From Prescottella soli (GTDB taxonomy: Bacteria; Actinomycetota; Actinomycetes; Mycobacteriales; Mycobacteriaceae), in NCBI RefSeq assembly GCF_040024445.1, contig NZ_CP157276.1:2480001-2544000 (forward strand): a stretch of DNA of 64,000 nucleotides. Reading direction: 5' to 3'. Shown here in pieces: positions 22,030 through 22,176 of this stretch. The notes beneath the pieces were generated by a model, which ran no database searches, was not told the origin of the DNA, and saw only the letters and a list, made by a program, of their open reading frames with translations. The position numbers and the translations under genes are program-made. The number at the start of each line of letters is the position of its first letter. Within the stretch, counting starts at the first letter, position 1.

Positions 22030-22035
22030 TACAGT
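22030..22035 (+). promoter_or_regulatory. Candidate -10 element (TACAGT) for leuA leader
   Basis: TACAGT fits the actinobacterial TANNNT -10 consensus and ends 7 bases before the leader-peptide ATG (22043). Transcription would then start at or next to that ATG, making the leader peptide leaderless. No convincing -35 is visible. Confidence 0.45.
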
Positions 22036-22042
22036 GCCTTCT

Positions 22043-22084
22043 ATGCAGCGCGCGCTCCTTCTTGGGTGCCGCGGCGGGTTCTGA
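22043..22084 (+). CDS. leuA leader peptide (attenuation peptide) with three consecutive leucine codons
   Basis: A 13-codon open frame, [13 protein letters not shown], with CTC-CTT-CTT leucine codons in tandem, ends 92 bases before leuA. Leader peptides rich in leucine codons upstream of leuA are known in actinobacteria and control transcription by ribosome stalling. The end of this frame (22072-22079) can pair with 22096-22103, and the latter can instead pair within 22096-22108, giving mutually exclusive structures. No Shine-Dalgarno is well placed, consistent with a leaderless start. Confidence 0.72.
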
Positions 22085-22108
22085 CCAGACTGGCCACCCG
22101 TCGCGGGT
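22072..22108 (+). promoter_or_regulatory. Candidate attenuator with alternative hairpins in leuA leader
   Basis: CGGCGGGT (22072-22079) pairs with ACCCGTCG (22096-22103), eight pairs with one G-U in RNA. ACCCG (22096-22100) alternatively pairs with CGGGT (22104-22108) around a TCG loop. The two structures share one arm, so only one can form. A ribosome stalled on the Leu codons would change which one does. Confidence 0.5.
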
Positions 22109-22176
22109 CCTCTCGTGCGCCGGTCGCCTCAGCTGTAGGACTCGTACGTCCTCACTCGAACCTGGAGATCAATCCC

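Follow-up and report, generated by a model that had tools for sequence, protein, structure and literature searches.

The attenuator of the enterobacterial leu operon (leuL) consists of a leader with its own Shine-Dalgarno sequence and an intrinsic terminator; a run of Leu codons in a leader peptide before leuA is common to leuL and the locus described here. For the LEU element of actinobacteria, mutational work of 1999 and a survey of 2005 reportedly left the mechanism open. In that survey (Seliverstov 2005, PMC1262725), only leuA and one transposase gene appear as downstream genes, and mutations of the Leu codons in S. coelicolor are described as having effects inconsistent with classical attenuation. 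These mutants are hard to interpret because the mutations also alter the base stem, in which the Leu run would be paired with the leuA Shine-Dalgarno sequence. In Streptomyces lividans, the leuA leader is reported to be leaderless and devoid of a Rho-independent terminator (PMC8079986), in M. abscessus a uORF before leuA was detected by Ribo-seq (PMC4974804), and the leuA leader of C. glutamicum contains four Leu codons (PMC4046766). For ilvB1 of M. tuberculosis, LVVI codons have been proposed to govern attenuation, with support from reporter and ribosome-profiling experiments (PMC13236596).

The leuA leader of Prescottella soli

The window, a stretch of 64,000 nucleotides of Prescottella soli DNA, contains a leuA gene whose product is a full 2-isopropylmalate synthase according to Pfam and NCBIfam (Table 1). 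Among named species, Prescottella equi (96% leuA identity) and Rhodococcus xishaensis (95%) are close relatives. The earlier note had described a 13-codon frame with the codons CTC-CTT-CTT, separated by 92 bases from the leuA ATG at 22177, and a TANNNT box 7 bases ahead of its own ATG. Coordinates, codons (ATG CAG CGC GCG CTC CTT CTT GGG TGC CGC GGC GGG TTC TGA), stop and box spacing all agree with the sequence. The leuA frame is open for 76 codons 5' of its ATG, across the leader region (21949-22176, +), so that an automatic gene caller could choose too early a start, which would mask the leader. A divergent ORF of 125 aa (21573-21950, -) and the leader promoter have an intergenic region of about 90 bp in common.

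Table 1. Positions of leader features at leuA and of further copies detected by covariance model in the same genome
Feature	Position	Strand	Remarks
-10 box TACAGT (TANNNT)	22030..22035	+	7 nt ahead of leader ATG; spacing conserved across the class
Leader frame including stop TGA	22043..22084	+	putatively leaderless start
Helix P0, 5' arm GCGCGCG	22048..22054	+	support within the family only
Sensor codons CTC CTT CTT	22055..22063	+	codon bias; complementarity test against leuA Shine-Dalgarno (LEU-element base stem)
H1, 5' arm CCGCGGCGGGT	22069..22079	+	within leader frame; covariation
H2, 5' arm GACTGGC	22088..22094	+	in H1 loop; covariation
H1, 3' arm ACCCGTCGCGG	22096..22106	+	covariation
Helix P0, 3' arm CGTGCGC	22114..22120	+	2-nt overlap with H2 3' arm; support within the family only
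H2, 3' arm GCCGGTC	22119..22125	+	pseudoknot with H1; covariation
leuA Shine-Dalgarno GGAG	22164..22167	+	
leuA, 2-isopropylmalate synthase, 602 aa	22177..23985	+	Pfam and NCBIfam
Copy before leuA paralogue (LEU element)	G000:C1:3696974-3697045	-	covariance model
Weaker third copy	G000:C1:3259284-3259363	-	covariance model

Judged by its sequence, the window leader belongs to the LEU element as a new member. In both (PMC1262725), a leader peptide with a Leu run, a pseudoknot, and complementarity of the Leu run to the leuA Shine-Dalgarno sequence are combined without a terminator. The arms of the pseudoknot were matched by description, and nothing essential appears to differ. The earlier note had regarded leucine attenuation in actinobacterial leuA as established in outline and the geometry as read directly from this DNA. 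The general idea is indeed known, but the geometry, too, had already been described as the LEU element. The leuL1 leader of S. lividans likewise has MRFGLLLLSCRGEGL upstream of leuA and no Rho-independent terminator (PMC8079986); it belongs to another genus, has four Leu codons in its run, and its start was measured, whereas that in the window is predicted. The ilvB/ilvB1 leaders of Corynebacterium, Mycobacterium and Streptomyces are similarly short, with branched-chain codons at which a ribosome would pause, but they end in a Rho-independent terminator, in place of which the window has the pseudoknot (PMC13236596, PMC1262725). No sequence or structural relation of the window leader to enterobacterial leuL was found, and the Rfam 15 covariance models gave no match at the gathering threshold or at E values up to 1. 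The window element itself is ordinary. To the element of 2005, the present comparison adds that its leaderless geometry extends across the class, and it provides covariation statistics for a large set of leaders. It also adds siblings that carry Ile/Val codons and precede genes other than leuA; these siblings are the interesting part.

From the class, 190 regions preceding leuA or one of its paralogues were collected. In 177 of them, Leu codons form an in-frame run, behind which come a stop and an arm of the CCGCG type, the Leu run being partly a matter of construction since the leader finder demanded at least three Leu codons; several regions failing the finder also have Leu-rich leaders. Conservation of the leader in relatives is thus not a chance result. 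A TANNNT box is located 5-9 nt ahead of the nearest in-frame ATG or GTG in 129 of 176 leaders, compared to a mean of 5.6 and a maximum of 13 in 200 shuffles, which, like the partner swaps used below, do not fully remove relatedness. If any in-frame start is allowed, the box is correctly spaced in 164 of the 176, and only eight show a motif similar to a Shine-Dalgarno sequence ahead of the leader start. From the sequences, such -10 spacing without a Shine-Dalgarno motif is what leaderless initiation would lead one to expect. A leucine leader peptide whose start looks leaderless, as suggested earlier, is well backed by comparison across the class and by the S. lividans data (PMC8079986), with position 22043 as the putative transcript start in P. 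soli.

Helices in the leader

The earlier note had placed two structures sharing one arm in the 3' part of the frame and the next 25 bases. They are replaced by two interleaved and compatible helices, H1 and H2, which form a pseudoknot conserved across the 177 leuA upstream regions by compensatory changes; the 3' arm of H2 is located outside the stretch weighed in that note. Among 52 distinct relatives, 98.3% of the cells are paired in H1/H2, and changes on both sides occur in 9 of the 16 pairs. Pairing and covariation values as high as these were obtained in none of 500 shuffles, and sliding the partners of H1/H2 reduced pairing to 59% or less. An alignment-free partner swap of H2 yielded 19.26 for own partners and 17.56 for swapped ones, with a maximum of 17.75. 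The pair 22079-22096 is U-A in the window and G-U in the nearest relative. At two H1 positions, Gly is changed to Asp or Glu with the base pair kept, indicating that the C-terminal part of the leader frame is conserved as RNA. Folding and alignment had been named as a check: the alignment revealed compensatory changes in the arms of H1 and H2, but the minimum free energy of 22043-22185 was unremarkable (z = -0.20), energy alone being uninformative. A self-hairpin CCCG-TCG-CGGG (22097-22107), one form of the second structure of that note, was rejected since it is lost where H1 carries GAG/CTC. A further helix, P0, is unsupported in the leuA type beyond the family.

Classical transcription attenuation by mutually exclusive terminator and antiterminator hairpins, the mode in which the ilvB1 leader of M. 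tuberculosis operates (PMC13236596), would be in keeping with Leu codons in tandem before a stable hairpin. However, the + strand of the leader has no stem with a T run behind it and so no intrinsic terminator, which makes this mode unlikely, and the conserved helices are compatible with each other instead of mutually exclusive. Attenuation in the classical transcriptional sense, as suggested earlier, is therefore unsupported and in our estimate extremely improbable.

The Leu run and the proposed output at leuA

The codons CTC and CTT make up 89% of the Leu codons in the leaders versus 15% in leuA genes. Complementarity of the Leu run to the leuA Shine-Dalgarno sequence amounted to 12.49 for own partners versus 11.70 for swapped ones, with a maximum of 12.26 in 200 partner swaps, in which relatedness is not fully controlled. 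In a first test restricted to the family, the codon order in the Leu run gave no significant excess of Shine-Dalgarno pairing, and the Ile/Val siblings do not retain the stem in this form. A base stem between Leu run and Shine-Dalgarno sequence thus receives some support from codon bias and complementarity, which do not prove it. Leaders kept CTC/CTT even where the leuA Shine-Dalgarno sequence is weak, and this would likewise be compatible with a single tRNA-Leu isoacceptor as the reader. Sequestration of the Shine-Dalgarno sequence by the 3' arm of H2 was considered and rejected. For leuA-type leaders there was no signal, with 10.66 for own partners and 10.69 for shuffled ones. Leaders of the Ile/Val type show complementarity of this arm to bases adjacent to the Shine-Dalgarno sequence beyond shuffles, a pairing that is conserved without covariation (13.58 own, 13.15 swapped, 10.57 shuffled); the output of this type is less certain.

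Starting from what comparison provides, namely the leader, its start geometry, the pseudoknot, the codon bias and the codon swap in the siblings described below, we infer leaderless initiation at this site, ribosome pausing and the output as follows. Transcription would begin at the AUG of the leader. With ample leucine, a ribosome would reach the UGA, cover the 5' arms of both helices (22069-22094) and then depart; the freed CUCCUU run would pair with the leuA Shine-Dalgarno sequence, and translation of leuA would drop. When leucine is short, a ribosome pausing on CUC-CUU-CUU would block this pairing and leuA would be translated. As long as no ribosome is present, the H1/H2 pseudoknot may keep the Leu run near the Shine-Dalgarno sequence.

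The same input could have another output, if translation of the leader set Rho-dependent termination before leuA instead of access to the Shine-Dalgarno sequence. An intrinsic terminator is missing here as in S. lividans (PMC8079986), and Rho-dependent control has been suggested for mycobacterial cys leaders (PMC1262725). For such an output, however, complementarity of the Leu run to the leuA Shine-Dalgarno sequence beyond that of swapped partners would be superfluous, and we consider Rho-dependent control possible but rather unlikely. Translational output at leuA, taken as a single step, has about even chances in our view. The account as a whole, in which a leaderless translated leader of the LEU element reads charged Leu-tRNA and controls leuA, appears likely.

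Siblings with other sensor codons

With a covariance model for leuA-type leaders, three copies were detected in this genome, that of the window among them (Table 1); pattern matches with a single mismatch were taken as chance. The leuA paralogue (53% identical; locus L181, G000:C1:3696890-3697450) has its own leader, MTHRGLLLGRRGGV. The weaker third copy (locus L317, G000:C1:3257784-3259663) contains the leader MQRIEVVVHRRSGV ahead of a protein of 159 aa, whose match is confined to the allosteric (dimerisation) domain of LeuA (PF08502, E 1.3e-6). At E values of up to 1e-8, 126 of the 142 family genomes contain matches to this LeuA_dimer protein, a few of the matches being full-length LeuA paralogues. 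At 82 of 89 LeuA_dimer loci, a leader with at least three Ile, Leu or Val residues is present with a TANNNT box 5-10 nt ahead, the consensus being approximately MKRILVVxRRSGV, and H1 and H2 are formed in 77 of these 82. Covariation of H2 is also seen in this type (19.74 own, 18.25 swapped, maximum 18.78). P0, here formed by the Val codons with the H1-H2 spacer, shows strong covariation in the Ile/Val type (17.35 own, 14.69 swapped, maximum 15.57), so that the Val codons themselves are one arm of this helix. In one genus of the family (L426, L429, L431), the LeuA_dimer leaders have other sequences (MITILLKRVPNPGGGAD, MSNILMRVPNPGGGED), and their fit to the pseudoknot is poorer. In the sensor zone, LLL is present in 177 of 177 leaders of the leuA type, as the finder demanded, and in none of 77 of the LeuA_dimer type, 61 of which have at least two Ile/Val.

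Beyond the family, searches with two covariance models revealed eight copies that precede leuB; their leaders include MRFVLILRCRDGA, MRSILVVVCRGEA and MTRIFVLPSRGGAR. One downstream LeuB was matched by Pfam Iso_dh, and at one of these loci (L479) leuB and then an ilvE-like frame are located behind an Ile/Val/Leu leader. At L456, L471, L335, L336 and L479, a tiny conserved ORF of about 20-36 aa, ending like ALQESMDRRDQGG, lies between leader and leuB; it gave no Pfam match above cut-off and no NCBIfam match. Weak model matches outside the class, mostly with E above 1e-4, were taken as chance, as were L486 and L487. Leu runs thus appear to go with leuA and its paralogue, Ile/Leu/Val codons with the LeuA_dimer protein in most of the family, and Ile/Val/Leu mixtures with leuB elsewhere in the class.

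In the 2005 survey (PMC1262725), the LEU element is preferably regarded as a protein-binding site, a reading drawn by its authors from the S. coelicolor mutants and accompanied by a phylogenetic profile match to ML1624. A protein site would need neither a change from Leu to Ile/Val codons with the downstream gene on a constant scaffold nor a conserved spacing between -10 box and start codon. That the sensor codons follow the downstream gene favours codon translation as the input over a pure protein-binding site, which we judge quite improbable. The LVVI codons proposed for ilvB1 in M. tuberculosis (PMC13236596) offer a precedent in the same family. We are fairly confident that the LEU element represents a modular branched-chain amino acid leader in one of its versions, in which a constant pseudoknot scaffold carries sensor codons according to the downstream gene. 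With respect to Rfam and the open-licence literature, siblings with Ile/Val codons before LeuA_dimer and leuB genes are new; a precedent in subscription journals is possible.

The natural codon swap constitutes direct comparative evidence for translated codons as the sensor and offers two further genes for testing it. The stand-alone LeuA allosteric-domain protein, present in most of the family genomes searched, is a candidate for regulating how branched-chain amino acids are made.
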